The notes under the pieces were generated by a model. The model was given only the letters and a program-made list of their open reading frames with translations, was not told the origin of the DNA and did no database searches. Positions 1 to 13,097 of a DNA stretch of 32,273 bases are shown here, piece after piece. The DNA is taken from positions 1 to 32,273 of the forward strand of contig CAIMTB010000154.1 in NCBI GenBank assembly GCA_903844265.1, in the 5' to 3' direction. The number at the start of each line of letters is the position of its first letter. Positions within the stretch are counted from its first letter, which is position 1. The stretch is from an uncultured Verrucomicrobiota bacterium (GTDB lineage Bacteria > Verrucomicrobiota > Verrucomicrobiia > Limisphaerales > CAIMTB01). The translations under genes were made by a program, and so were the position numbers.

Positions 1-235
1 CCCGTTTACGGTTCACCGCCACTCCCTCGTTCTCCAGCAGTCTGAGCAACCGACGGCTTCCGTACACCGGGTGCTTGAGGTTCAGTTCATCAAGGCGTCG
101 CATGATCGCCAGGTTCTCCGCCGTCTCCGGCTGGCACTCGTAGTACACGCTGCTGCGCGCCACGCCGAGCAGGTCGCACTGATCCCGAATGCTGAGCTCT
201 TCCTTCGGGTCCACCAGCGCACGGAAGTCGCTCAC
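1..235 (-). CDS. IS3-family transposase OrfB (partial, N-terminus only)
   Basis: Reading from GTG at 235 gives a protein beginning VSDFRALVDPKEELSIRDQC and continuing through LLGVARSSVYY and HPVYGSRRLLRLLE. This is the typical N-terminal HTH_21-type region of IS3 OrfB, which precedes the DDE integrase core. The reading frame is open to the window edge, so the catalytic residues are not visible. The GTG overlaps the OrfA stop (GTGA). The natural product is probably an OrfAB fusion: a -1 slip on the A8G run in OrfA leads directly into this frame without a stop. Confidence 0.85.
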   Translation of the reverse strand, partial: MSDFRALVDPKEELSIRDQCDLLGVARSSVYYECQPETAENLAIMRRLDELNLKHPVYGSRRLLRLLENEGVAVNRKR

Positions 236-528
236 AATCCCAGTTGCTTGGACTTTTTTTTCATGAAGTCCAAATCGACACTCAGTTCCCCGATCTTCTG
301 GTGCAGATCGGCAACCAACCGCTCGGTGTCCTCCCCGGCCTTCCCGGCGGTTTCGAAGAGTTCGGGCAAGCGATCCCGGATGACCGCCTTCCACTGGCTC
401 ACCTGTACCGGATGCACGGAATACTCCCGGGCGATCTGGGCCACCGTCTTGATGCCCAGGACGGCCTCCATGCCAACCTTCGCCTTGAATGCTGCGCTGT
501 GTCTCTTTCGCTTTGCTTTGGTGCTCAT
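232..528 (-). CDS. IS3-family transposase OrfA (helix-turn-helix protein)
   Basis: The protein is about 98 aa from the chosen ATG at 528 (MSTKAKRKRHSAAFKAKV). An upstream in-frame ATG at 561 is possible but would add a non-family leader. It shows the IS3 OrfA pattern: a basic N-terminus, a helix-turn-helix with IAREYSVHPVQVSQWK, and a C-terminal leucine-zipper-like segment ending LDFMKKKSKQLGL. It binds the IS ends and, after frameshifting, forms the N-terminal part of the transposase. The codons for MKKK create an A8G slippery run. The frame appears intact, so the element could be functional if its 3' half is. Confidence 0.85.
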   Translation of the reverse strand: MSTKAKRKRHSAAFKAKVGMEAVLGIKTVAQIAREYSVHPVQVSQWKAVIRDRLPELFETAGKAGEDTERLVADLHQKIGELSVDLDFMKKKSKQLGL

Positions 529-601
529 TTGTCTGATCACGTTGTGATTGATCAGACCCACAAAACCATAACTTAACGACTGGTCCGAAAACAGGGGTCC
601 A

Positions 602-667
602 CTTCAGCGCGATGCCTCGGGTCCGCTGCGATCCGACTCAAATGTCGACTGTCAATGTTTGACCCCA
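602..667. repeat. Repeat family 1, copy A (right part only, cut by the IS)
   Basis: The 25-bp right terminal repeat is at 643-667 (TGTCGACTGTCAATG... ending GACCCCA). It is identical to the right end of copy C at 11535-11559 and one base different from copies B and D. The ~40 bp before it (CTTCAGCGCGATGCC...CGACTCAAA) resemble the right interior of copy C. No left terminal repeat is visible. The IS end at 601 directly abuts the remnant, which suggests the IS disrupted this copy. Confidence 0.75.
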
Positions 668-689
668 AGCGACCCCTCCCTGCTGGGCG

Positions 690-1195
690 CTGAGACCGAC
701 TTCAAGCTGCGGGCCTAACTCGCCAAGTTCCTCCAGCCTCTCGGAGTTCTCGGCCCGCACACCGCGATCCATCTGGTGGCCCAGGCCGTGAGCATAGAAG
801 ACGACCGGGAATCGCCCTGGGTCCGCGGCGACCAGCGCGTCGGCGGCCGCGAACTCGACGATAGCGGGCACTCGACTGGCGTAGGTTGCGCTCCAGTAGG
901 CGGAGCGTTCCGCGAGCGGCCGATCCAAGTAAGGGGCCGGCCTGGGACCGGTTTGAGTTTGGGCGGGATACCAAACGGTGACCATGAACGAACTGTTTGT
1001 TCGGATATTGAATCGGTTGGTGCGCGAGGCGTCCGTCAGCATCCGCGACACTGTGCCCACCGCATGGGGGGTCGGTCGGCGCCGGAAAGGCGGTGCTGAA
1101 ATCATTAGTCGGCGTGCGGTAGAAGCGCACCGGAGCGTTCGCGGACGCCTGGTCCACGAACGCCACGATGTTGGGGAGGAGCGGTTGCCGATGCG
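690..1195 (-). pseudogene. Decayed alpha/beta-hydrolase (PAF-acetylhydrolase/dienelactone-hydrolase-like) fragment
   Basis: Two minus-strand frames together resemble the N-terminal half of a secreted PAF-acetylhydrolase-like enzyme. The first frame (from ~1195) reads LLPNIVAFVDQASANAPVRF and runs to ~1070. The second continues with HAVGTVSRMLTDASRTNRFN, a FMVTVWYPAQ strand, a proline-rich linker and FPVVFYAHGLGHQ, the region that forms the oxyanion hole in this fold. The switch falls at a run of six G at 1066-1071, so a one-base indel or a sequencing error could explain it. Similarity stops soon after HGLG, before any nucleophile-elbow GxSxG, next to repeat copy A. No start codon context is evident. 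Family assignment rests on motif recall. Confidence 0.6.
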
Positions 1196-1215
1196 GCGGG
1201 CCGCCCCGGGTGCAG

Positions 1216-1818
1216 TCATTTTCCGGGCTTCCCGGGAAGCTGCAGGACCCCGTCGTAAGTCCAAGTGGCGACCCCGGCGTACGAGTCGCAGAAGCAATCT
1301 GCGCCGCAGAAGAAGAATGCGCCGTTGATCTCGCCGCTCCCTCGCGCGTTCTGGAGGCTTCCGGTGCCGCCCGTGATCGTCACGTCGTAGTGCAGCAGGT
1401 TCATGCTCGGGGTTGGTTTCGGGTCTTTCGGATCGGCATCGGCCCAGCCGGCAACGTCCGCGTGGAGTTCATCGCCGGCCAAAGTGGTGATCGTCAGCGT
1501 GCCCGCGATGCAGAAGTAATGCCGTCCCTCGCAGGCCGTACCGGCGTCGATCTTGACGGCGAACCGCGCCGTGCAGTTTCCGAGGTTCGACAACTGAACC
1601 ACGCCCCGAACCTCATGGTTCCACGGGAAGACGGGATTCCCACCGGCATCCCACAAAGGCGTCAGGTTGAACGCCGTGCCGGCGTTTCCTTTCATGGCGC
1701 TTGTGGTGGTCTTTGCTCGCGGTGGGCCCGCTTGGAGGGCGCTCTGCGAGAGAGCTAGCAGCATCAGCGCCGCCGCGAAGATCCTGCCAAGGTTTGATGG
1801 GATGGTGCGCTTGCGCAT
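1216..1818 (-). CDS. Secreted protein of unknown function
   Basis: This is a ~200-aa exported protein. The start MRKRTIPSNLGRIF gives a standard signal peptide (basic n-region, hydrophobic AAALMLLALSQSALQA, AxA-like cleavage near residue 29). An ATG six codons earlier (1836) is also possible. The mature part is rich in beta-strand-forming sequence and glycine, with cysteines in GNCTARF, TACEGRHYFC and FFFCGADCFC that could form disulfides. The segment DVTITGGTGSLQNARGSGEI recalls the TGxFxGAxGxG signature of dirigent/allene-oxide-cyclase-like barrels, but this is only a resemblance. It ends in a basic LPGKPGK tail. A promoter-like block matching the one before the kinase gene lies ~60-80 nt upstream, suggesting co-regulation by the ECF sigma factor at 5505-6257. 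Confidence 0.75.
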   Translation of the reverse strand: MRKRTIPSNLGRIFAAALMLLALSQSALQAGPPRAKTTTSAMKGNAGTAFNLTPLWDAGGNPVFPWNHEVRGVVQLSNLGNCTARFAVKIDAGTACEGRHYFCIAGTLTITTLAGDELHADVAGWADADPKDPKPTPSMNLLHYDVTITGGTGSLQNARGSGEINGAFFFCGADCFCDSYAGVATWTYDGVLQLPGKPGK

Positions 1819-1897
1819 GAGTTGGATGTCGAGCATAGGCGTGACTTTCGGAGGTGAGGGTTCTTGGTTTCTGTTCGTCGGCGATGGCTCGCCACTT

Positions 1898-1935
1898 CCT
1901 ACCGCAGGGGAAACCGCGGAAGGTTACAGGGAATA
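1898..1935 (-). promoter_or_regulatory. Putative ECF-type promoter, copy 1
   Basis: On the minus strand GTAACCTTCC is followed, 16 nt after AACCTT (1925-1920), by GGTAGG (1903-1898). The same two boxes with the same spacing, in a ~47-bp block matching at about 37 positions, occur upstream of the kinase gene at 5419-5457. Position (60-80 nt before the start) and the AAC-containing upstream box fit an ECF sigma promoter. No transcription start is known. Confidence 0.5.
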
Positions 1936-1991
1936 ATGGTCGCCATTTGAACAGCTGCGGCACGCTCCGCTGCCGGAGCCCGGCGAGAGCA

Positions 1992-2091
1992 GGATGGGCC
2001 TTGGGTTCTTGGCCCATCCGGTGGCCGAGCGTCCGGTCCGGATTTCGGACCCCGCCCATCGGCTTCCACGCCGTCAGGCATTGCCGACGGC
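1992..2091 (-). terminator. Cluster of three hairpins after the kinase gene
   Basis: Three inverted repeats lie immediately downstream of the kinase stop codon. The first is GCCGTC/GACGGC (2070-2091, 10-nt loop), the second GGTCCG/CGGACC (2035-2051, 5-nt loop) and the third a perfect 9-bp stem GGATGGGCC/GGCCCATCC (1992-2019, 10-nt loop). None is followed by a clear T-run on the minus strand, so intrinsic termination is uncertain. They could equally stabilise the mRNA 3' end. Confidence 0.4.
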
Positions 2092-2094
2092 CTT

Positions 2095-5000
2095 CTAGCG
2101 CTCCGCTTTCCCGGCTCCGGCAATCCAGACCCGCGAGGAATCCCCGCTGGTGGAAACCAACCGGCTCCCGTCGGGTGAGAACGCGAGCATGCCGATCCAG
2201 GTGAGGTGCCCGTACAGGACCGCGATTTCGCGCCGGGTCGGCAGGTTGATGAGCTTGAGTATCCCGTCCTGGGTTCCTATCGCCAGGGTCCTGGCATCGG
2301 GCGAGATGGCAACCGAAATAACATTGCCCGCCTCGGGCTGCAGTTCATCGGACTGATCCGTATCCACGTTCCAGATGTGCACACGACCGTCAAGGCTACC
2401 CACGCAGAGGATGTGAGTGCGGGGCACCCAGGCGATCGCCCGGGCGGCCAGGTGGGACCGGGTTGGGAACCGCGCCGGGCGCCAGGAGCGCACGTCCAGG
2501 ATGTGGACGGACCCCTCCTCCCCCACACCCGCTAAGAATTGGCCGTCATGCGAGAAACCGAGGGACAGGAGAGGCTTCGCCGCGGTGGGACCCGGAGCCC
2601 AGATTCCGCGCCGCCGCCAGTCGGTCGTTTCTCGAACGTCGACCACGCCCGGATCCCCCGCGGAGCTAGCCGAGCCCCGACGGAGCGCGAGCCATTGGCC
2701 ATCGGGGGAAAAGACGATGTCCCCGTCCACCACCGTGTCGACGTCTTGGTCGGGAAGTCGTGCCAGGGAACGCGCGTCCCAGACACCGAACCTGTTCGTG
2801 CCGAAGACGCCCACGATCCGCTTGCGATCTGGGGAAAAGGCGGCGTGGCTGACCGGCAGTGTGGCGAGAGTTTGTTCGGATTCGACGTCGCGGATCACCG
2901 CCTGACCCTCTTCTTCTCGGATATTCCGTCGGCCGTCCGGGGAGAAGCCCGTTCCGAGTGCGGTGAAATTGTCGGTTTGCGCGTGCCGGCTATCGAGCGT
3001 GCGAACGTCCCAGAGTTTCACGGTCCCGTCGACGCTGCCCGTGACGAGGAGTTGGCTGTCGGGGGTGAAATCGACGGTCCAGATCCTTCCAACGTGACCC
3101 CGGAGGGTCAGGGGTCTGCCGGCGCGGCTGGATGGGTCCGCGACCTTGACTGTTCGATCCCGGGAGCCCGGCGCCAGTTGGGACAGGTCCCAGAGCTTCG
3201 CGGTATGATCGCGAGACCCGGAGGCGAGCCATCGTCCGTCGGGGGAAAACGCGACTGAGTCGACCGGGCCCTCGTGCGAGCCGAGCGTATTGCTTTCGTC
3301 ACCGGTGACGCGCCACAGTCGCACGGAATGATCCAGCGAGGCGCTCGCCAACCATTGGCCGTCCGGTGAAAAGCGGACGCACGACACGATATTCCCATGA
3401 CGCAGGAAGGACCTCAGGGGGCGTCTGGAAGCCAGGTCCCAGAGCATGATTGATCCATCCGCATGGGGCGTGGCCAGCAAGCGGCCATCCGGGGAGAACG
3501 CAGGCTTCCAGGCATTCGAGGTGTGGCCTTGCAGGTCGAGGAGCTTCGAGTGGGTGTGCCCGTCCCAGATCACGATCTGTCCCGGAAGAGTGCGATTGTA
3601 GAGCCCCCCCTGGTGGGCGGTCGTGACAATGAGACGATCGTCCGGGCTCCAAGCCGCTGCGAAGGGCGCGCACGTGGCCTGCCCCATCAGGTGGGTGATG
3701 AGCGTCCGGCGGTCGAGATCCCAAACATCGAAGCGCTCCCAGTTGGTGGACGACACCAGGCGTTTTCCGTCGTTGGAGAAGGCGACCCCATAGACCCAAC
3801 CGGACTGCGATTGCAGGACCCCAACTTCCTGCCGGGTCATGAGATCCCAGAGGCGGATCCGCCCATCGAGCTCCCCGGTGGCGACCAACCTGCCGGCAGG
3901 AGAACAGGCGAGGCCAAAGACCTGCCGGGCCGCGGGTGGGAGGGTCGGTCCTCCTGGAAGCGTGTCCAATGCGCGTTCCCGGCAGAGCGCGTCGAGATAG
4001 TACCATTCGAAGCCGCGCCGTTCCGGTCGGCCTGGCTTGGGGCGCTGATTCTCCAGCAGGGTCCCGGGCAGCCGGAAGTTGCCGCGTTCCCAGGCTGCGA
4101 ATGCCATCGAGGTTTCCGCCACATACAGGTTCGCCTCCGCCTTGTTGCGTTCCGTCCGCAGGTGCAGGGAGAAGGCCGTGGCGCCGATCGCGAGAGTCAG
4201 GAGGAGGACCAGGGAAGCACCGGCCAGGGCCGCGACGGCGGGACGCCTTCGCATCCACTTGCGCAGGCGTTGGAAGTTCGTGCTGGCCCGCGCCTGGATG
4301 GTTTCGTGGCGCGACCAGCGTTCCAAGTCCTCGGCGAATCCCTCCGCGGAGCCGTAGCGCAGCGCCGGGTCCTTCTCCAGGCACTTCAGGCAGATCGTTT
4401 CCAGGTCAGGATCGACGGCGGGATTGAGCAGCGAAGGCCGACGCGGGTCCTGGTCGAGAACCTGCCGGATGGTTTCCATCGAGGTCCCGCCGCTGAACGG
4501 CGGGGAGCCGGTCAGCATCTCGTAGAGCACGGTGCCGAGTCCGTAGACGTCCGCCGCGGTGGTGACGTCCTTGGTCTGTCCTCGCGCCTGTTCCGGGGAC
4601 ATATAGGCCGGTGTGCCCAGAACCGCGTTGGTGTGGGTCAGGGTGCTTTCCTTCTCGATCAGTTTGGCGAGGCCGAAGTCGGTCAGGTGCGGCACGCCTT
4701 GCGCGTCCATGAGGATGTTGCCGGGCTTCAGATCCCGATGGAGCACCCCGCGCTGGTGGGCGTAGTGGACGGCACGGGCCACCGTGGCCATGAGGCCCGC
4801 GGCTTCGGAGGGAGGATAGGCGGTGGAGATGGTGGGTTCGCCGGGGCTGGGTGGCGCGGAGGATCGGCGAGCGGCTTCGACCGAGGTCATTCCGCGCCGG
4901 TGGCCGCGACTGGCGAGGGCGTCCCGCAGGGTGGGACCTTCGACCAGATCCATGCTGAAGTAGTGCAGGCCTTCGTGCGCGCCGATTTCGTGGATCGGGA

Positions 5001-5379
5001 CGATGTTCGGGTGCATGAGGCTGGCGGCGGCCTCGGCCTCGGCCTTGAAGCGCTTGACGAGGTCGTCCGTGGCGAAGGTGCCGGCGCTGATGACCTTGAG
5101 GGCCACCAAGCGATTCAGGCTGACTTGGCGTGCCTTGAAGACGGTGCCCATCCCGCCGCGCGCGATCTCCTCCAGGAGCTCGTAGTCAGCGAAGTAACGC
5201 GCCCGGCCGGACAGGAACTCCGAGGCACGAGGCGCGGTTTGAGGTGGCGGATCCGCTGGGGAACCGACGGCTGTCGCCTCGCCGTCCTTGGAGAGGCCGA
5301 GGGAGAGGAGGCATCGGATGCAGAGGCCGCGCGGAGCATCCTTCGCGATGGGTTCGCCGCAATCGGAGCAGATTTCCAT
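2095..5379 (-). CDS. Membrane Ser/Thr protein kinase with N-terminal zinc ribbon and C-terminal WD40 propeller
   Basis: This 1094-aa protein is a Hanks-type kinase fused to a WD40 sensor domain. Residues 4-23 form a CxxC...CxxC zinc-ribbon-like motif. The kinase domain (~66-355) has the glycine loop [14 protein letters not shown]95 in VALKVI, catalytic HRDLKPGN (D216), DFG at 234-236 and [11 protein letters not shown]. All key residues are present, so it should be active. A ~35-residue Ser/Pro insertion sits at about 155-190. A single transmembrane helix (about 380-405) separates the cytoplasmic kinase from a distal region with many WD40 repeats ([21 protein letters not shown] type), extending to the C-terminus. 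It would phosphorylate proteins in response to a ligand at the propeller; the target is unknown. An ECF sigma factor gene lies 125 bp upstream on the same strand, an arrangement common in Verrucomicrobiota and Planctomycetota. A promoter-like block directly precedes the gene. Confidence 0.93.
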
Positions 5380-5418
5380 GGAGGGTTTGGCGGGCGTTGT
5401 GAGGGACTCCTGCCATTC

Positions 5419-5457
5419 CCTACCGCAGGAGGAACGGCGGAAGGTTACCGGAGATAT
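5419..5457 (-). promoter_or_regulatory. Putative ECF-type promoter, copy 2 (kinase gene)
   Basis: On the minus strand GGTAACCTTCC is followed by GGTAGG (5424-5419), with 16 nt between AACCTT (5446-5441) and the downstream box. The block is ~79% identical to that at 1898-1935. It lies between the sigma factor gene and the kinase start at 5379, giving a predicted leader of about 30-35 nt. This implies that the kinase can be transcribed separately from the sigma gene. Confidence 0.5.
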
Positions 5458-5504
5458 GTAGGTCTCGATGTCGAGGAATCATGGCGGGTGCTTCGGAGAG
5501 CGAG

Positions 5505-6257
5505 TCATCGGCCGAGGACAGTCTGGAGATGGCGGATCTCCTGCGTGGCCTCCTCCGGTGTCGCCACGGTCCGGGCGATCTCCTGGCGCAGCAGTTCGCC
5601 GTAGCGCTTTCGCAGCCGATGAACGGCGACCTTCACCGCGCCCTCGCTGATGCCGAGACTGGCCGCGACCGCCGCGTGGGGGATCAGGTTCTTGTCGCCG
5701 GAGAGGAAGGGCTGCAAGTGTTCGAAGACCCTCGATCGTTCCGGGGCCTCGTGCTCTTCGCGCAGGCGGCCCAAGGCCTGGTCAAGCAGGGTCAAGGCCC
5801 ACCGGCGCTCGAACAGGTGCTCGGGGGTGCGGTTGTCTTCGAGTTCAAGCGCGTAGCGCGCCTCGGCATCAAGGTCGTCGAGGGAGAAATGGACCTTGTC
5901 GCCGCCGCGCTTCTGGGCGCGGGCGCGATCCCATTCGTTGGCGAGAAAGTGGTTGAGCGCTGTGAGCAGGTAGGAGCGGAATCGGCCCCCTTCGCGGGTG
6001 ATCTCGCGTAAGTGGCTTTTCTCCAGGAGGCGCGCGAAGAACGCCTGCGTGAGATCTTCGGCGGCATGGCGGTCATGCCCTCGCCGTCGGATGTAGGCGT
6101 ACAGCGGATACCAGTAGGTGCGGCACAGTCCCTCAAGCGCTTCGGTCGCCTGCGGCGACTCCCCAAGTCCGGCCGCCAGGACAAGGCTCCAGTGAGTCGT
6201 GTGGAACCCCGCCCCGCCCAAGGATCGATCGGGGGCGTTTTCGCCGTGTAGCGCCAT
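5505..6257 (-). CDS. ECF-type RNA polymerase sigma factor
   Basis: From ATG at 6257 (MALHGENAPDRSLGG) this is a 250-aa sigma-70-family protein. The N-terminal part carries TTHWSLVLAAG, then region 2 with YWYPLYAYIRRRGHDRHAAE and DLTQAFFARLLEK. Region 2.4-like sequence includes RFRSYLLTALNHFLANEWDR. Region 4 has a helix-turn-helix in LGISEGAVKVAVHRLRKRYG. It is longer than minimal ECFs because of an acidic linker (~120-165). The frame stays open upstream for another ~100 codons, but that stretch translates repeat copy B, so the later start is chosen. It would direct RNA polymerase to a small regulon, perhaps including the two promoter-like blocks at 1898 and 5419. No anti-sigma gene is adjacent; the kinase is the likely regulatory partner. 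Confidence 0.9.
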   Translation of the reverse strand: MALHGENAPDRSLGGAGFHTTHWSLVLAAGLGESPQATEALEGLCRTYWYPLYAYIRRRGHDRHAAEDLTQAFFARLLEKSHLREITREGGRFRSYLLTALNHFLANEWDRARAQKRGGDKVHFSLDDLDAEARYALELEDNRTPEHLFERRWALTLLDQALGRLREEHEAPERSRVFEHLQPFLSGDKNLIPHAAVAASLGISEGAVKVAVHRLRKRYGELLRQEIARTVATPEEATQEIRHLQTVLGR

Positions 6258-6322
6258 GGACGAACGATGAGGCGGATCGATAGGGTCGACGAGCCTCGTT
6301 AAAGGTCCAATGACCGGGGTGA

Positions 6323-6586
6323 TGGGGTCAAACATTGACTGTTGACATTTCCGCATTTCCGTATTGATGCGACGTGCGGTCCCCGCCCGTTCCACGCCGT
6401 CAGCAGTCCGGGGTCGGCAACAACGAATCCCCTGCGCCGGCGCCACAGGCTTCAAGCCACGCACCTCGCGCACGATCTCCACCAATCGCGAAACCAGGAG
6501 GCGTGGGGCCATCTGAAGTTGTGTCCGCACCCGCTCGGGTCGAGCGGCGATTCGAGTCAAATGTCAACTGTCAATGTTTGACCCCA
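6323..6586. repeat. Repeat family 1, copy B (264 bp, longest copy)
   Basis: The left end (6323-6347) and right end (6562-6586) are 25-bp inverted repeats with one mismatch. The interior has two recognisable modules. The left module (TTCCGCATTTCCGTATTGAT...CAGTCCGGGGTCGG) is shared with copy D. The right module (ACCAATCGCGAAACC...CGTGGGGCCATCTGAAGT) is shared with copy C. The element occupies most of the gap between the sigma factor and the helicase-partner gene, whose stop codon is 13 bp beyond the right end. No protein is credibly encoded. Confidence 0.9.
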
Positions 6587-6599
6587 ATCGTTTCCCAGG

Positions 6600-8462
6600 T
6601 CAGGCGACTGGGCTGAGGTAGCCGAATTGCTCGAGTCGCTTGTTCAGCTTGCGGAGGTCACCTTGGCGGACCGCGATGCGCAGGCCTTCGACCTTGAGCA
6701 CGATCTCCCGCAGGATAGGGTCGGTAGCAAGATGGCGGCGGAGTTCCTCGTCGTCGGCGAGCTTGAGGACGACGAACTCCGGTTCCGGTTTCAGCGGGGC
6801 GACGCGGGCGAGCGTCCGGGAGAAGAAGTCCTCCCAGAGCGTGGGGGGCCGGTCGGACACGACCCGACGAAAGAGCCGGATGCGTTCCTCGATGTCGGCG
6901 CGGGTGGCGCATCCACCGAGGAGGGACTTCGCAGTCAGGCGGTAGCGGCCCGGGGCGAAGGGTTCGAGTAGCCTCTCCAGCGCCAACCGGGTGAGAGCGT
7001 CCGCGTCGAGGCAGGTTGCGAGCAGGCGGGTTTCGTCGAGGATCACACGATGGGTTTTCGCGGGACCGGCGTCGATCTCCCAGGACTTCCGCCGGCCGAG
7101 AACGAATTCCCCCCAGCCCGTCAGTCGGACGTATCTGAGCCCGTCGAACGGGCTCAGATAGTGCTTTCCGGGGAGGTGGCGGGTCACTCGCCTGGGGGGG
7201 TCATAGGCGATTTCCGCCATTCCGAGGGCGGCGAGGAGGAAGGCGTAACCTTTGAGCAAGGGAGCGGCGACGAGTGGGAAGATTTCGTCGCCGCCGACGA
7301 GGAAAGTCTTTTCCCATGGGTTACCCTCGGCCCTGAGGTTCGCTTGGAACCTGGTAGCGTCCGGCGGGAACAGGCTGGGGGATTTCTCGCGCAGGAGGTG
7401 GTAAGTGGCGATGTTCTCCCACGAGACCCACTGTCCGGGCGGGAACTTTGCGAAGAAGGCCGGGAGCGCCTTCACCGATGGCGGATGGTAGTCGAGCCAG
7501 CGGTTGCGGGGACTGTCCAGATGTCCGAGCAGTTCGGCGTGCAGAAATGTCGGCAGGACCAGCATCTTTCCCAGGGCCGTCCGCAGCAGTTCCGGCCGAT
7601 CCGGGTTGGCGAGGATCTCGGCCCGTTCCTTCGGGTCCAGAAGGGAGGTTCCGACCGTCAGCAACCGGGACCGGAGGACGGCCAGATCGGTCTCGTCGGC
7701 ATCGGGAAAAAACTCGGGTCCTTGGATCATCTCGCGGACGGCGTGGATGGAGGGCAGGGTGACCCGGTCGGACTTGGTGCGCTTCAGGTGGCCCTGTTCG
7801 ATGAACCCGAGGACGAGACGGAGGTCGGCGATTCCGTAGGGGCCGGCGGCGGAGCGAATCCCGGCTTTGGCGGGCAGGTCTGCGATCGGGTTCAGTTCGT
7901 AATCCGGCGGGGACGGAAGGAAGTTCCGGAAGCACTGCCGGACTTCGATTGGCAGCGACGCGAGCAGGTCCTTCTTTTTCGGCGGGCCGGACTGGCTACC
8001 GTAATAGCGCCATTGACCGGATCGACCGCTGTGGACCATCAGGAAGCCGTGCTCGGGCAGCAGGAGGTACGGTTCGTAGATCCGCTGCTCCCCGGGATTC
8101 TCGATGGCGACCGGAGAACCGATGGCTTCCTCCAGCGCCGCAAGGTTGATCGCCTTCGACCAGGTGAGGGCGGCGATGGCCTTTTGGGTGGGGGAGGGCA
8201 GCCTTTCGTAGAAGCCAAGTCCCAGTTTCGGGTCGCGCAGCACCGCCGTGAGGAGGGTCGCCAGATAGGGCTTCTTGGGCTTCTTATCACGTGCCGCCAC
8301 GTCCTTGCGCTCCGGCGGGGGTAGTTTGTCTGGATGCGCCTCGGCAAGCGGTTGGAGGCTCGTCTCGTACAGCCATTGGAGAAACGGCGCGGAGCAACAG
8401 CGGATCGCCACCGTCTCGAGCGGCGCCTCCAGCATCATCTCGACCTCGTGGAACATGACCAT
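6600..8462 (-). CDS. Uncharacterised partner protein of the SNF2 helicase
   Basis: From ATG at 8462 (MVMFHEVEMMLEAP; an alternative ATG is at 8456) this is a ~620-aa soluble protein. The start lies only 8 nt after the helicase stop, so the two are almost certainly co-transcribed. No signal peptide, membrane segment, zinc motif or nuclease motif was recognised. The C-terminal third (LLEPFAPGRYRLTAKSLLGG followed by an ADIEERIRLFRRVV segment, then a strand-rich EFVVLKLADDEELRRHL tail) faintly recalls the XPB/Ssl2-type helicase-associated domain found in some bacterial proteins, but this is a weak impression. Tight coupling suggests that it forms a complex with, or targets, the helicase. The coding frame remains open upstream into the helicase gene, but that extension is out of frame with the helicase protein and is not used here. 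Confidence 0.8.
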   Translation of the reverse strand: MVMFHEVEMMLEAPLETVAIRCCSAPFLQWLYETSLQPLAEAHPDKLPPPERKDVAARDKKPKKPYLATLLTAVLRDPKLGLGFYERLPSPTQKAIAALTWSKAINLAALEEAIGSPVAIENPGEQRIYEPYLLLPEHGFLMVHSGRSGQWRYYGSQSGPPKKKDLLASLPIEVRQCFRNFLPSPPDYELNPIADLPAKAGIRSAAGPYGIADLRLVLGFIEQGHLKRTKSDRVTLPSIHAVREMIQGPEFFPDADETDLAVLRSRLLTVGTSLLDPKERAEILANPDRPELLRTALGKMLVLPTFLHAELLGHLDSPRNRWLDYHPPSVKALPAFFAKFPPGQWVSWENIATYHLLREKSPSLFPPDATRFQANLRAEGNPWEKTFLVGGDEIFPLVAAPLLKGYAFLLAALGMAEIAYDPPRRVTRHLPGKHYLSPFDGLRYVRLTGWGEFVLGRRKSWEIDAGPAKTHRVILDETRLLATCLDADALTRLALERLLEPFAPGRYRLTAKSLLGGCATRADIEERIRLFRRVVSDRPPTLWEDFFSRTLARVAPLKPEPEFVVLKLADDEELRRHLATDPILREIVLKVEGLRIAVRQGDLRKLNKRLEQFGYLSPVA

Positions 8463-8470
8463 GGCGGGGC

Positions 8471-11281
8471 TTATCCGAGGATGTGGTCGATGTCGGCCTC
8501 GCTGAGCGACTTGAGGTCGACGCCGTCGCTGCCGATGATTGCGTCGAACAGCTGTCGCTTCCGGCGCTGCAGTTCCACGATCTTCTCCTCGACCGACTCG
8601 CGGACGATGAGGCGGTAGGTGAAGACGGTGCGATCCTGGCCGATGCGGTGGGCGCGGTCGATCGCCTGAGCCTCCGCCGCCATGTTCCACCAGGGGTCGA
8701 AGATGAACACCGTGTCCGCCGCGGTGAGGTTCAGCCCGAGACCACCGGTCTTGAGCGTGAGGATGAATACCTTGATGTCGTCGCGGCTCTGGAACTGTCG
8801 CACGAGGGATTCCCGGTTCACGGTGGCGCCGGTCAGGGTCAGGTGGCCGATGCCGCGTTCGGCGAAGTCAGCCGACAGCAGGTCGACGGCGGCGAGGAAA
8901 TTGGTGAAGACGAGAACCTTGTGTCCATTGAGCACGGCGTCCTGGACGGTTTCGACGAGGAGTTCGCGCTTGGGCGAAACGATGGCGCCTTCGCTCTTTT
9001 CCTCTGGAATGCTGGCCAGTTGACGCAGTTCGAGGAGGGCTTCGAGGACGAAGAAGCGGCTGGCGTGCAGGCCGTCCGTGGCGATCCGCTGCGCGAGGGT
9101 TTCGCGGTAGAAGCGGCGACGGCTTTCATACAGGCGCTTCTGTTCGGGGCTCATGTCCACGAAGAGCGTCTGCTCGACCTTCTCGGGCAGTTCCTTAAGC
9201 ACGTCCCGCTTCAGGCGTCGCAGCATGAACGGGTAGATCTTCCGCCGCAGTTCCCTCGCCGCCTCCCGGTCGTCCTGCTGCTGGATCGGGACAGCGTACT
9301 GGCGGTCGAAATCGGCCCGGGAACCGAACATCGCCGGATTGAGGAAACGGAAGAGGGCATAAAGTTCGCCCAGATGGTTTTCGACGGGGGTGCCGCTCAA
9401 GGCAAGGCGGTGCTGGGCGCGAACCATGAGCACCGCTTTCGAGGTCTGGGTGTCGGTGTTCTTGATGGCCTGGGCTTCGTCGAGGATCGCGTAGTGGAAC
9501 TCCCGTCCGACGAACTGCTCCACGCTCCCGCGCAGCGTCCCGTAGGTCGTCAGAACCAGATGACCCTTCATGGCCTCGTCCAGATCGCGGTTCGCGCCGT
9601 GGAATACGCCGCAACGCAAGGAGGGGCAGAAGCGCTCGATCTCCCGCTGCCAGTTGAACAGCAGGCTGCGCGGCATGACCAGCAACGAAGGCCGGGTCTC
9701 GGCCGGGTAAATCGTGGACAGCAGGGCGATGGTCTGGACGGTCTTGCCCAGCCCCATGTCGTCCGCCAGACAGCCGCCCAGTCCATGGAGGTGGAGGTAG
9801 GCCAGCCATTTCAGCCCGGCCAATTGGTACGGGCGCAAGTCGGCGGCGATGGGCGGTGAGGGCTGCTTCTGGTCGGCCAGGGAGTTGAATCCGAGGAACA
9901 CCTCCCGCGCCCGGGCGAACGGCGCGTTTTCGGCGTTGGCGTCGATGAGTTCCTCGACGGCGGGAAGATCGAAGAACGAGACGCGGACGCCCTGTTCGTG
10001 GCGGCGGAAGAGGCGGCTCAGCTTGGCGACGTAATCGGCATTCATGACGGCCCGGGTGCCGTCGGCGAGGGTGATGCAGGATTCCTTGCGGTTTTCCGCG
10101 AGCACCTCCATCAGCGAAAACCGCTCGCCTTCGATCTCCACCTCCGCGGTCCCGTCCAGGTAGTCGATGCCGTATCCGAGGTTCAGCTTCAACTTGGGCG
10201 TCACCGGCTTGATCCGGTACGCGCGCAGCTTTTCCGCGCCGAACAGGGTGTAGCGACGCGCCAGATCGCCGAGTTCGCGGGCGAGAAAGCGCGCGGCGAG
10301 GCCCCGGTCGATCACGAAACCGTGGTCGTCCGCGTACACGAACCCGTCGGGCCGCGCTCCGAGGTCCTTATCGTGGCGGTGCAGGGTGCGGGTCAGGTCC
10401 TGGCGGGCTTCAACCAGGGAGTCGTAGATGACCTCGCGCACCACGACGGTCTTCTCGACGTCGTTGAGATGGGCCACTCGCGAGATGTCATGCCGCTGCA
10501 CGAAATCGGCCGACAACCGGGGCAGCGAATGGACCAGCCCGAAGTGTAATTCGCCCGTCTCGTCGACGGTGCGGAAGAGGACCGCCGCGCGGGCATGCAC
10601 CGGCTCGCCGGCTGCGACGGTGTGTTCGCCGTAGCGGAGTTCGACCCCGGTGAAGTGGGAATAGAACAGCGCCAGACACCGTTCCAACATCGTCTCGGGA
10701 AAGGAGGCGGCGAAAAGCGCCAGACGCCGGTGGTTCTCCCCCACCGGGGCCGTTCCCAGGATACGGTCTCCGACCAGGACATGGGATTCGTTGAGGAACC
10801 GCAGTTCATCTCCGGTCGCGAGGGCTTCTCCGTCCCGGACCAGGGTCAGGCGGCCTTCGATCCAGGACCCCTTGGGGGCAAGCTCGAGCCGGATTGTGGC
10901 GGTCCCCGGTTCGAACCGGACAGGCTGGCGGTCGGGGCCAAGGACCGGAGCGCCGGCACGCAGGAGCCAGATTAGGTGCTCATGGCGGTGCAGGTACGCG
11001 TGTTCCGCGGAGCGCTCCCAGCCCACGAGCTCCTGCTGGCGCTCCTCGACGGCGGCCAGCGCCTTGAGCAGATCCCGAAGTGGGCCCCGGGCGGAGCGGT
11101 AGTCGAAGGGCCGGGGCCGCCCTTGGCTGTCGGTCACCTCCAGATAGGCTCCCTCGTCGTCGAACGCCAGGCGGACCGTGGCTTCTCCCTCGGTGATGGC
11201 ACCCGGGCCTGGCCGTTCTCCCGATCGTCGCAGGGCGACAAAGAGCGGCGGTTCGGCTTCATTTTCTTCCAGCGGAAACAT
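8471..11281 (-). CDS. SNF2-family DNA-dependent ATPase/helicase
   Basis: A 936-aa protein with a complete SNF2 motor in its C-terminal half. Motif I is DDMGLGKTVQTIAL near residue 510, motif II ILDEAQAIKNT near 600 and motif III LALSGTPVENHLGELYALF near 627. The helicase C domain has LVFTNFLAAVDLLSADFAER, LKTGGLGLNLTAADTV and motif VI QAIDRAHRIGQDRTV near 872. The C-terminal tail KIVELQRRKRQLFDAIIG is typical of bacterial SNF2 proteins. The N-terminal ~450 residues are a poorly conserved beta-rich region. Such proteins translocate on double-stranded DNA and remodel protein-DNA complexes. There is no SWIM zinc finger, nuclease or methylase fused or adjacent. The gene leads a two-gene unit with 6600-8462, and the unit is bracketed by repeat copies B and C. 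Confidence 0.93.
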   Translation of the reverse strand: MFPLEENEAEPPLFVALRRSGERPGPGAITEGEATVRLAFDDEGAYLEVTDSQGRPRPFDYRSARGPLRDLLKALAAVEERQQELVGWERSAEHAYLHRHEHLIWLLRAGAPVLGPDRQPVRFEPGTATIRLELAPKGSWIEGRLTLVRDGEALATGDELRFLNESHVLVGDRILGTAPVGENHRRLALFAASFPETMLERCLALFYSHFTGVELRYGEHTVAAGEPVHARAAVLFRTVDETGELHFGLVHSLPRLSADFVQRHDISRVAHLNDVEKTVVVREVIYDSLVEARQDLTRTLHRHDKDLGARPDGFVYADDHGFVIDRGLAARFLARELGDLARRYTLFGAEKLRAYRIKPVTPKLKLNLGYGIDYLDGTAEVEIEGERFSLMEVLAENRKESCITLADGTRAVMNADYVAKLSRLFRRHEQGVRVSFFDLPAVEELIDANAENAPFARAREVFLGFNSLADQKQPSPPIAADLRPYQLAGLKWLAYLHLHGLGGCLADDMGLGKTVQTIALLSTIYPAETRPSLLVMPRSLLFNWQREIERFCPSLRCGVFHGANRDLDEAMKGHLVLTTYGTLRGSVEQFVGREFHYAILDEAQAIKNTDTQTSKAVLMVRAQHRLALSGTPVENHLGELYALFRFLNPAMFGSRADFDRQYAVPIQQQDDREAARELRRKIYPFMLRRLKRDVLKELPEKVEQTLFVDMSPEQKRLYESRRRFYRETLAQRIATDGLHASRFFVLEALLELRQLASIPEEKSEGAIVSPKRELLVETVQDAVLNGHKVLVFTNFLAAVDLLSADFAERGIGHLTLTGATVNRESLVRQFQSRDDIKVFILTLKTGGLGLNLTAADTVFIFDPWWNMAAEAQAIDRAHRIGQDRTVFTYRLIVRESVEEKIVELQRRKRQLFDAIIGSDGVDLKSLSEADIDHILG

Positions 11282-11398
11282 GTCAGGGGGTTGCTTTCGG
11301 CGTTTGGGATGGGCCTTCCGCCGGAAGCTGCCTGACTCTGGTCGCGCTGGAAACGGTGGACTTTTCGGTTCGGCTGGTCGTCACGGAGGCGATGGCGA

Positions 11399-11559
11399 TG
11401 GGGTCAAACATTGACTGTTGACACTTGCGTGTCGAGACGCCGTGCCACCTCGACCAATCGCGAAACCGGGAGACGTGGGGCCATCTGAAGTGGCCTCAGC
11501 GCCGCGCGATGCCGCGAGGCGCGCTCGACTCAAATGTCGACTGTCAATGTTTGACCCCA
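11399..11559. repeat. Repeat family 1, copy C (161 bp)
   Basis: The left end is 11399-11423 and the right end 11535-11559, a 25-bp inverted repeat with two mismatches. Relative to copy B it lacks the left module (TTCCGCATTTCC...) but keeps the right one (ACCAATCGCGAAACCGGGAG, GTGGGGCCATCTGAAGT). It fills the divergent gap between the helicase start and the propeller-protein start, so it may carry or separate their promoters. The remaining ~118 bp before the helicase start hold no recognised feature. Confidence 0.9.
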
Positions 11560-11603
11560 ATCGTTTTGCAACTCCCGAAGCCTCTCGCCAACGTGCTCAA
11601 CGC

Positions 11604-12962
11604 ATGAAGCGCCACCCCCTGACTCCCTTCCTGGCCCTGTTCAGCGCCGCAGCCATGACAGTCGCCGCGCAGTCCTTCGACTGGCCGCAGTGGCAGGGCC
11701 CCGACCGGAACGCAACTTCGAAGGAAGCCGGGTTGCTCAAGCAATGGTCGAAAGACGGCCCGCCGCTAGCCTGGAAGATCCAGGGACTTGGCGGTGGCTA
11801 CGGCGCTCCGTCCGTTGCCGCGGGGCGGATGTTCGGCATGAGTAGTCGTGGCGAGGACGAGGTTGTCTGGGCTCGATCCGAGGCGGATGGCAAGGAAGTG
11901 TGGGGTGCGCGTCTGGGTCCGGCTCTGACCGAAGGAGCGCCGCAGGGAAAGGAGGGTGCAGGGTGCGCACCGACGGTGGATGGCGAGCGGCTGTATGTTC
12001 TGGGCTTGGGCGGCGACCTGGCCTGCCTGCAAGTGCAGGACGGCAAGATTGTCTGGCGACGCAGTGTGGCCAATGATTTCGGCGGGATACTCCCGACTTG
12101 GCGATACAACGAATCGCCACTTGTTGACGGCGACAAAGTCGTCTGCACGCCGGGAGGCAAAGACGCGACGATCGTCGCCCTGAACAAGTTGACCGGCGAA
12201 ACGATCTGGAAGACGGCAGTGACCGAGCCTTCCGGCGGCAGTTCCGGCGGCCCGGGCGGGGGACGCGGAGGCGGGCGTCCCGGCTTCAGGGACTCTGGAG
12301 CTTCCTATTCCTCGGCCATAGCGATCGATTTCGGGGGGCAGCGTGAATACGTGCAGTTCACCTCGAAGGCGTTGGTCGGCGTCGCGGCGTCTGACGGGAA
12401 GTTCCTCTGGCGGTATGACCGGCCTGCCAACCGGATGGGTATCCACTGTTCGACGCCCATCTACCAGGAGGGTCTGGTTTTCGCCGCCTCGGCCTACGGG
12501 GCTGGAGGTGGGCTGGTGAGGCTGGGCAAGGATGGGAACGGCGGCATCAAAGCCGACGAAGTCTGGTTCTCCAAGAACATGGAAAACCACCATGGGGGCG
12601 TGTTGGTCTTGGATGGTTGCCTCTATGGCAGCAACGGCGGCAACGGCGGTGGCTACCTCGTCTGTCTCGATTTCGCGACCGGCGACGTCTTGTGGAACGA
12701 GCGCGACGCGGACAAGCGACGTGTGACGAAGGGCTCCGTCGCGCTGGCGGACGGGCGAATCTACTATCGCACCGAGGAGGGCACCGTTCTGCTGGTTGAG
12801 CCCAGCCGGAAGGAGTATCTTGAGCGTGGGCGCTTTGAGCAGCCCGACCGCACGAAGCAGCCGGCCTGGACTCATCCTGTCATCGCAAACGGACGACTCT
12901 ATATTCGCGATCAGGACACACTCTTTTCCTACAACGTGCGGGCCGATGGGGTCAAACATTGA
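11604..12962 (+). CDS. Secreted PQQ-like (quinoprotein-type) beta-propeller protein
   Basis: From ATG at 11604 the product is 452 aa with a signal peptide (MKRHPLTPFLALFSAAAMTVAAQ). The mature start SFDWPQWQGPDRNATSKE is the hallmark of the PQQ-like outer-membrane-biogenesis/propeller family abundant in Planctomycetota and Verrucomicrobiota. Repeated blades follow, for example GKEVWGARLG, DGKIVWRRSV, TGETIWKTAV, DGKFLWRYDR and TGDVLWNERD. A Gly/Arg-rich loop (PGGGRGGGRPGF) sits near the middle. Such proteins act in the periplasm as scaffolds or sugar/alcohol-oxidation-related propellers; no catalytic residues can be assigned. The last residues GVKH are encoded by repeat copy D, whose left end provides the stop codon, so the native C-terminus after LFSYNVRAD was replaced or trimmed by about a codon or two. 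Confidence 0.9.
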   Translation: MKRHPLTPFLALFSAAAMTVAAQSFDWPQWQGPDRNATSKEAGLLKQWSKDGPPLAWKIQGLGGGYGAPSVAAGRMFGMSSRGEDEVVWARSEADGKEVWGARLGPALTEGAPQGKEGAGCAPTVDGERLYVLGLGGDLACLQVQDGKIVWRRSVANDFGGILPTWRYNESPLVDGDKVVCTPGGKDATIVALNKLTGETIWKTAVTEPSGGSSGGPGGGRGGGRPGFRDSGASYSSAIAIDFGGQREYVQFTSKALVGVAASDGKFLWRYDRPANRMGIHCSTPIYQEGLVFAASAYGAGGGLVRLGKDGNGGIKADEVWFSKNMENHHGGVLVLDGCLYGSNGGNGGGYLVCLDFATGDVLWNERDADKRRVTKGSVALADGRIYYRTEEGTVLLVEPSRKEYLERGRFEQPDRTKQPAWTHPVIANGRLYIRDQDTLFSYNVRADGVKH

Positions 12963-13083
12963 CTGTTGACAGTTCCGCATTTCCGTATTGATAGGACGTG
13001 CGGCCCCCGCCCGTTCCATGCCGTCATCAGTCCGGGGTCGGCTGCGATTCGAGTCAAATGTCAACTGTCAATGTTTGACCCCA
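12947..13083. repeat. Repeat family 1, copy D (137 bp)
   Basis: The left end is 12947-12971 and the right end 13059-13083, a 25-bp inverted repeat with one mismatch. It keeps the left module of copy B (TTCCGCATTTCCGTATTGAT, CCCGCCCGTTCCATGCCGTC) and lacks the right module. The element lies between two convergent genes. Its left end overlaps the last codons of the propeller gene, and its right end lies 14 bp from the rhamnosidase stop codon. A bidirectional transcription-termination role is possible but unproven. Confidence 0.9.
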
Positions 13084-13097
13084 CTTTCGTAGGAGGG

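Follow-up and report, generated by a model that had tools for sequence, protein, structure and literature searches.

The window analysed here is the whole of contig CAIMTB010000154.1 (C154; 32,273 nucleotides) from an uncultured Verrucomicrobiota bacterium, and its first 13 kb carry four copies, A to D, of a small element with inverted ends, the last of which overlaps the end of a propeller gene. Genomes are labelled Gnnn (G000 is the window's own genome), contigs Cnnn, and fetched loci Lnnn. A scan of the window for the 17-bp end TGGGGTCAAACATTGAC gave seven exact copies, all before position 13,084 (651-667 on the minus strand, 6323 (+)/6586 (-), 11399 (+)/11559 (-), and 12947 (+)/13083 (-)), against 1.4e-6 matches expected from base composition. 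No further end was found in the window at up to 3 mismatches, leaving the last 19 kb without ends. Within B, C, and D the two arms pair with 88-96% complementarity over 28-32 bp. A first-pass annotation had claimed that the four copies share inverted ends and that these are confined to the first 13 kb, and both claims were borne out. Its treatment of all four copies alike holds for B, C, and D, which are complete, two-ended elements; A is a half element with one end, and it begins only at 607, position 606 being the terminus of an insertion sequence. The features are listed below, with LE denoting the end of the transposase-5' type and RE that of the 3' type.

1-606, minus strand: part of an insertion sequence that interrupts copy A and that we take to be of the IS3 type; its presumed terminus, TGAAGTGGACCCC.., lies at 606, and it contains an open reading frame at 232-561.
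607-667, minus strand: copy A, a remnant with only the LE (exact end 651-667), 80% identical (61 bp) to the first 61 bases of the full-length element described below.
6323-6586, minus strand: copy B, 264 bp, RE at 6323 and LE at 6586; 28-bp ends 96% complementary; alignment at 71% identity (189 bp, E 1e-24) with full-length element bases 941-1121.
6354-6518, minus strand: remnant of transposase C-terminal coding sequence inside B (tblastn, 49% over residues 308-362 of the transposase P0001, E 9e-11).
11399-11559, minus strand: copy C, 161 bp, RE at 11399 and LE at 11559; 32-bp ends 88% complementary.
11604-12962, plus strand: propeller (PQQ_2) gene of our own gene model (PF13360, E 1e-34), with its stop codon in copy D and the C terminus ..RADGVKH-stop.
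12947-13083, minus strand: copy D, 137 bp, RE at 12947 and LE at 13083; 28-bp ends 93% complementary.

The two ends are distinct, reading TTGACAGTYGACA (LE) and TTGACTGTTGACA (RE) in the window, and the elements are therefore directional, B, C, and D having the minus-strand orientation. Copy A differs from the element in L022 by one mismatch, and the match stops at 607; A lacks its other half because the insertion sequence terminates at 606, cutting A at 606/607. The open reading frame at 232-561 matches PF01527 (HTH_Tnp_1, an orfA-like helix-turn-helix) with E 5e-5 and 23.9 bits, just below the cut-off of 24.1. Adjoining copy A, a 40-bp stretch (window 678-717) recurs at 89-95% identity in G001 (two places, C3) and G003 (one place, C309).

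A full-length element with a Y1 transposase gene

The first-pass annotation had reasoned that a transposase might act in trans on these noncoding copies, and this idea is now supported, because a search for a transposase gene flanked by the same ends found one in the same genome. The full-length element is 1,121 bp long (C435:4335-5455; L010 1836-2956) and has the same two ends as the window copies around an intact Y1 (HUH) transposase gene. Its product, P0001, scores over the cut-off for PF01797 (Y1_Tnp, E 2.5e-10); the frame gives 367 amino acids from a TTG or 353 from an invariant Met15, and the last codons and the stop lie within the RE. P0001 contains NHYH, VFQG, and YIHLNP, the key motifs of TnpA-Y1 subclass 2.1, and in an alignment of nine sequences NHYH is present in all nine and Tyr occupies the catalytic position in eight. 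The family has a DnaA-like C terminus: a profile of the nine sequences matches DnaA chains over positions 254-349 (E 2.8e-4), and PF08299, the DnaA C-terminal domain, is found in the relatives L112 (E 3e-11), L106 (0.006), and L101 (0.11), the last two below the cut-off. P0001 alone gives no DnaA C-terminal match at E 10.

Several small copies align with the full-length element. Beyond B, copy D matches bases 1048-1121 (73% over 82 bp) and is 87% identical over 47 bp at its LE, L022 is 76% identical over 183 bp, and copy C matches bases 941-979 at 79% over only 39 bp, with its LE 88% identical over 41 bp to L113. The alignments of B, D, L022, L023, and others indicate that the small elements arose by internal deletion of such an element. 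Judged by these alignments, B and D are internal-deletion derivatives and C is less clearly so, and the divergence of the small copies from the full-length element shows that not all of them are recent. The same homology bears on the proposal that the copies are miniature inverted-repeat transposable elements (MITEs) belonging to a DDE insertion sequence of unrelated origin, the Y1 gene being a chance passenger. Terminal inverted repeats (TIRs) of this length are usual in DDE elements, which would suit that proposal. We nevertheless regard it as extremely improbable, since internal sequence of B, D, L022, and L023 shows homology to the Y1 element, cognate ends surround Y1 genes at five other loci, and the fixed-length target duplication expected of such an element is not seen (0 of 48 elements for 4-7 bp).

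Units of this kind have been described before. In the text of Di Nocera et al. (2013, PMC3733652) available to us, such transposases are named TIRYTs and the units TIRtrons, some TIRs contain GGGGWSAS, and some genomes hold repeated TIR families. The likeness is close: as in the TIRtrons of that text, a Y1 transposase like the REP-associated tyrosine transposases (RAYTs; REP, repetitive extragenic palindrome) lies between long inverted repeats unrelated to GTAG REPs, and such repeats flank the gene at L010 1836-2956, L098, L100, L101, L106, and L096. The end here, GGGGTCAA, agrees with GGGGWSAS at 7 of 8 positions, the last S being unmatched, and the congeners' GGGGTCAC and GGGGTCAG fit. In the portions of Quentin et al. 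(2018, PMC6006769) concerned, 20 of 26 TIRYTs fall in TnpA-Y1 subclass 2.1 (Bertels group 1), which has the motifs NH[YF]H, FQ, and Y[IV]HLNP, a DnaA-C/HTH-like C terminus, and a median length of 238 amino acids; the TIRYT examples cited there have inverted repeats with GGGG[AT][CG]A[CG], and no REP-like sequences lie near subclass 2.1 genes. The present family shares the motifs and the DnaA-like C terminus of that subclass and the inverted repeats of the cited TIRYT examples, and differs in its length of about 350 amino acids.

A to D are very probably non-autonomous, MITE-like copies of a TIRtron, that is, of an element of about 1.1 kb in which inverted ends of about 28 bp enclose one Y1 HUH transposase gene, from a family whose C-terminal domain resembles that of DnaA. 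Mobile DNA of this kind is already known, and the family is assigned as a TIRtron with its MITE derivatives. The small copies are short, have inverted ends, lack a working gene, and have an autonomous relative (50 of 51 pairs of 83-270 bp; homology to the 1,121-bp element), and the alternative foreseen by the first-pass annotation, when taken as MITEs of a known kind of element, is largely true. By analogy with other Y1 HUH enzymes, the transposase would recognize the ends, each of which could form GTCAA-ACA-TTGAC four bases from the tip, and would act in trans, excising and inserting the small copies as single-stranded DNA. The insertion sites would have (G)CAA-like sequence on their flanks, and no target duplication would result. 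The chemistry expected here is the Y1 HUH chemistry of IS200/IS605 (IS608), likewise without target duplication; class 1 differs in having Y---Q, small subterminal hairpins, and no such inverted ends (compare PMC6006769).

A related proposal is that the copies are canonical REPINs, pairs of GTAG-type REPs mobilized by an ordinary RAYT. Paired inverted units between genes are typical of REPINs, and the present family likewise has a Y1 transposase, a short hairpin near the tip, and inverted pairs of 83-270 bp between genes. The foot before GTCAA-ACA-TTGAC is TGGG, so the GT[AG]G of REP hairpins is absent, and the inverted ends extend to the tip of the element. The protein, of about 350 residues, carries the FQ and YIHLNP motifs of subclass 2.1 and, in the family profile, the DnaA-like C terminus; REPs are not found at subclass 2.1 genes in the available text of Quentin et al. 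(2018, PMC6006769). We consider REPINs in this strict sense very improbable. In the available text of Bertels and Rainey (2011, PMC3116915), REPINs resemble the present copies as miniature bacterial mobile DNA tied to a Y1 transposase, and differ in that no GTAG-type REP occurs here.

Several observations weigh against the assignment of A to D as copies moved by a TIRtron transposase. NF047646, the NCBI model for REP-associated tyrosine transposases, scores 55.8 bits on P0001, under its curated cut-off of 80. The own genome (92.6% complete by the tool's figure) is known to hold one intact copy bearing these ends, whose activity is predicted only. The GTCAA-ACA-TTGAC fold of the LE is a weak hairpin (-2.7 kcal/mol), and on the RE strand the lowest-energy fold (-3.0) pairs differently. 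The transposase genes of L097 and L099 show no paired ends among the repeats listed. The CAA before and the TTG after the elements may be either the target or part of the end. Evidence for mobility comes from patchy distribution, and comparison of orthologous loci for precise insertion or excision gave no clean filled/empty pair, so we infer insertion itself: no clean empty site was found beside conserved genes compared with the congeners G001-G004, in G085/G087 (two genomes treated below), or when 45 joined flanks were compared with the fetched loci, where the two spanning matches are a weak 77% match and a tandem duplicate.

The own genome contains other Y1 genes. A second RAYT-like gene on C482 (L002 784-1983, L099) is 48-50% identical to P0001 and has ARHMHLNP and a His at the site of the catalytic Tyr, and paired ends were not seen around it in the repeats listed. 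It is probably dead or domesticated, and the His and the lack of visible paired ends disfavor it as the mobilizer of the family. Three short Y1 fragments (C204, C42, C174) gave no end when scanned.

Copies in the own genome and their insertion sites

A genome-wide search for the ends gave 136 matches (68 + 68) at up to 2 mismatches in the 6.0-Mb, 671-contig own genome, and a reversed control pattern gave none across it. Loci were fetched for 100 listed of the 136 places, so that some copies remain uncovered, and they contain 125 ends at up to 3 mismatches, which resolve into 51 inverted pairs (1,121 bp in one case, 83-270 bp in the other 50) and 23 unpaired ends. With base 18 alone as the criterion, 48 of the 51 pairs combine one LE-type with one RE-type end. 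L016 3-152 and L017 578-727 have a flank in common and may be one locus counted twice. When L016 was used to look for homologues, the yield was only 12 matches, short and weak. In three cases (L017 711/739, L025 3621/3642, L090 1185/1214) the RE tip and a purine-rich flank are partly duplicated in tandem, which may trace faulty end processing.

The copies are clumped: 22 neighboring pairs lie within 2.5 kb of each other against 2.0 expected under uniform placing, a count that uses a hand-typed list of 71 places and a null that ignores contig ends. With dozens more copies in the genome, and these clumped, the bracketing of four transcription units in the window that struck the first annotator is partly a matter of position. 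At L007 1349-7622 (C63), L080 345-3673 (C308), and L011 1767-4790 (C559), nearly every single-gene gap has one element, at a cassette-like spacing of 1.3-1.8 kb.

Flanks and target duplications were assessed for 48 elements (3 of the 51 pairs lack 25 bp of flank on one side). The duplications of 4-7 bp were absent from all 48; at 3 bp they occur in two, against 0.5 expected, and at 2 bp in none, against 1.5 expected. Before the LE, 37 of the 48 elements have G at -4 and 34 have C at -3, and the first six bases after the RE are rich in pyrimidines. Of 31 exact ends in fetched G085/G087 DNA, all 31 have C at -3, 24 have A at -2, and 29 have A at -1. Hairpin targets were rejected, as the joined, folded flanks of the 48 elements are no more stable than cross-paired flanks. 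Integron attC sites were set aside on sequence inspection only.

The earlier view that the copies occur only in gaps between genes needs one correction in the window, where the propeller gene enters D by 16 bases and ends at a TGA belonging to D. In general the ends respect gene borders, in contrast to placement without regard to them. In gene models from our own simple codon-usage caller, 39 of the 125 ends have a stop codon within 30 bp and 3 have a start at that distance, and 2 fall deeper than 60 bp into a predicted gene. Selection against damage would suffice to make copies rare near starts, so targeting need not be invoked, and the copies that survive between genes, often at their 3' ends, would be those in the least harmful places. 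The abundance of ends near stop codons would also suit conserved transcription terminators or regulatory structures that are not mobile DNA. That explanation is highly improbable, given the homology to the transposase gene, the patchy presence of the copies, the absence of an end beside the homologues in G001 and G002 of neighboring genes, and an Rfam scan of the window that gave no match.

In 18 of the 125 ends, D among them, the element supplies the stop codon of the gene, as modelled by the same caller (two of the 18 genes, L006 13193-14128 and L088 1076-1285, score low). A frame entering the end would stop at base 16, and a second frame at base 23 in ends with ..TTGA; an element inserted into the last codons would thereby give a gene a new stop. 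Twelve ends have the stop at base 16, giving ..GVKH-stop (once ..GVKP-stop), and six at base 23, giving ..GSNIDY/C/S-stop (once ..GSNLDC-stop). For three of these genes the homologues (L118-L120, L126, L127) terminate no more than about ten residues from where the element was inserted, and for a fourth the homologues L128 and L129 continue much longer beyond it; L125, a second homologue of one such gene, was left out of the comparison for its unhelpful reading frame. Supply of a stop codon by 18 of 125 ends shows how such elements can alter protein C termini.

Set beside the available text of Di Nocera et al. (2013, PMC3733652), the present family adds the tracing of small copies to internal deletion, two distinct ends, the capture of gene stops, and a possible link to rearrangement. 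In this TIRtron family the source gene is intact and the descent of dozens of derivatives is directly readable, and the question of those authors, whether TIRYTs make and move TIR families, becomes testable with one protein and two oligonucleotides. The name TIRYT turned up in 2 papers, and literature searches on RAYTs and on miniature inverted-repeat elements in Verrucomicrobia gave no paper on this end family among the titles listed.

Relatives and a lead on rearrangement

Transposases 36-64% identical to P0001 occur in the congeners and in G043. Those of L098, L100, L101, and L106 lie within 1,060-1,074 bp between differing but related ends that start GGGGTCA, and the cognate ends around relatives' transposases read TGGGGTCACATCTATATTTTTGATAT (G002:C38), GGGGTCACATCTCTGATTTTGACA (G002:C96), GGGGTCAGATCTCTGATTTTGACAA (G001:C56), and GGGGTCAGGTCTCAACATTCAACATTTGCCT (G043). 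The closest G002 homologue (G002:C164, L096) has the ends TGGGGTCAAACATCAAC and TGGGGTCAGACATTGAC. Among named proteins, relatives are found in the Verrucomicrobia metagenome-assembled genomes (MAGs) ADurb.Bin006 (57%) and Pedosphaera sp. (68% over 74 residues); a Nitrospina MAG (30%) and a Deltaproteobacteria MAG (a 20-residue match) add further relatives. A 301-bp element in the Pedosphaera MAG (L113 987-1287) has ends that are nearly the same and contains a fragment with 68% identity to the transposase N terminus, and G057, another genome of the order rich in such transposases, has 21 matches, many of them fragmentary.

The end itself is patchily distributed. At up to 1 mismatch it is present in 3 of 58 genomes, the own genome counted, and 6 of the 320 genomes searched from the order have exact ends (own genome 91, G002 3, G003 1, G085 71, G087 83, G097 3). 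G085 and G087 are two species of another family, and their congeners G086 and G088 have 0 exact ends. Conservation of copies at the same place, which would have spoken against mobility, was not seen where it could be checked: the homologues of the genes that adjoin B (G001, L109) and D (G002, L110) have no end at up to 5 mismatches beside them. L110 has one weak end match, on the opposite side of the gene, and the few ends at up to 5 mismatches in congener flanks are at chance level by our own estimate.

The first-pass annotation had offered a second possibility, that the copies are recombination sites exchanging gene cassettes. On such a reading, ectopic recombination or one-ended transposase events between copies would shuffle gene units, with the elements as cassette borders. 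This was not shown for the window, where the flanks compared are mostly shorter than 1 kb and integrases were not searched for; the neighbors of conserved genes differ between congeners even without a clear end. Ten congener-congener comparisons at six genes match over one gene only, save for one 37-bp match, and the congeners share so little around conserved genes, with the short flanks fetched, that element-free sites could not be matched.

Evidence in favor comes from G085 and G087, two sister species of another genus whose aligned blocks are mostly 85-92% identical and for which 173 kb of G087:C1 was compared. The flanks of the G087 element at 724775-724877 align to two G085 contigs, the left one to C13 and the right one to C29, and both alignments break off 8 bp before the element; the flanks of the element at 999243-999334 lie on G085 C12 and C15; and the elements at 874753 and 577089 stand at 25-kb and 7.8-kb length differences. 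Counting only junctions with both arms fetched, and with genes again modelled by our own caller, gaps are disrupted by a contig switch or a large length difference in 4 of 5 element-bearing cases against 8 of 132 others (Fisher 1.7e-4), and with 5 hand-counted run ends added, in 4 of 5 against 13 of 137 (p 7e-4). When the seed elements (724775 and 999243), which decided the contigs fetched, are left out, the figures fall to 2 of 3 against 13 of 137 (p 0.03). Five elements only are involved, and 999243 was picked after its G085 alignment was known to stop inside the element. The fifth element-bearing gap, with a lone end, is intact and common to both genomes. The C13, C29, and C15 arms of G085 contain no end at up to 3 mismatches, so a simple exchange between two shared or old copies is not seen, and misassembly in either MAG is possible. 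The link between elements and rearrangement in this second genus is thus a lead, and the elements may have a side role in rearrangement; as an account of the elements, recombination sites are unlikely. A bolder version is rather doubtful: that TIRYT elements make rearrangement junctions, the transposase or recombination between copies joining unrelated flanks at element borders and so breaking and re-joining neighborhoods every few kilobases while re-terminating the genes touched. Other interspersed repeats of about 170-220 bp with a different end type occur in G087 (L131 12821-12987, L136 10469-10688), on both strands and with dozens of matches in G085.

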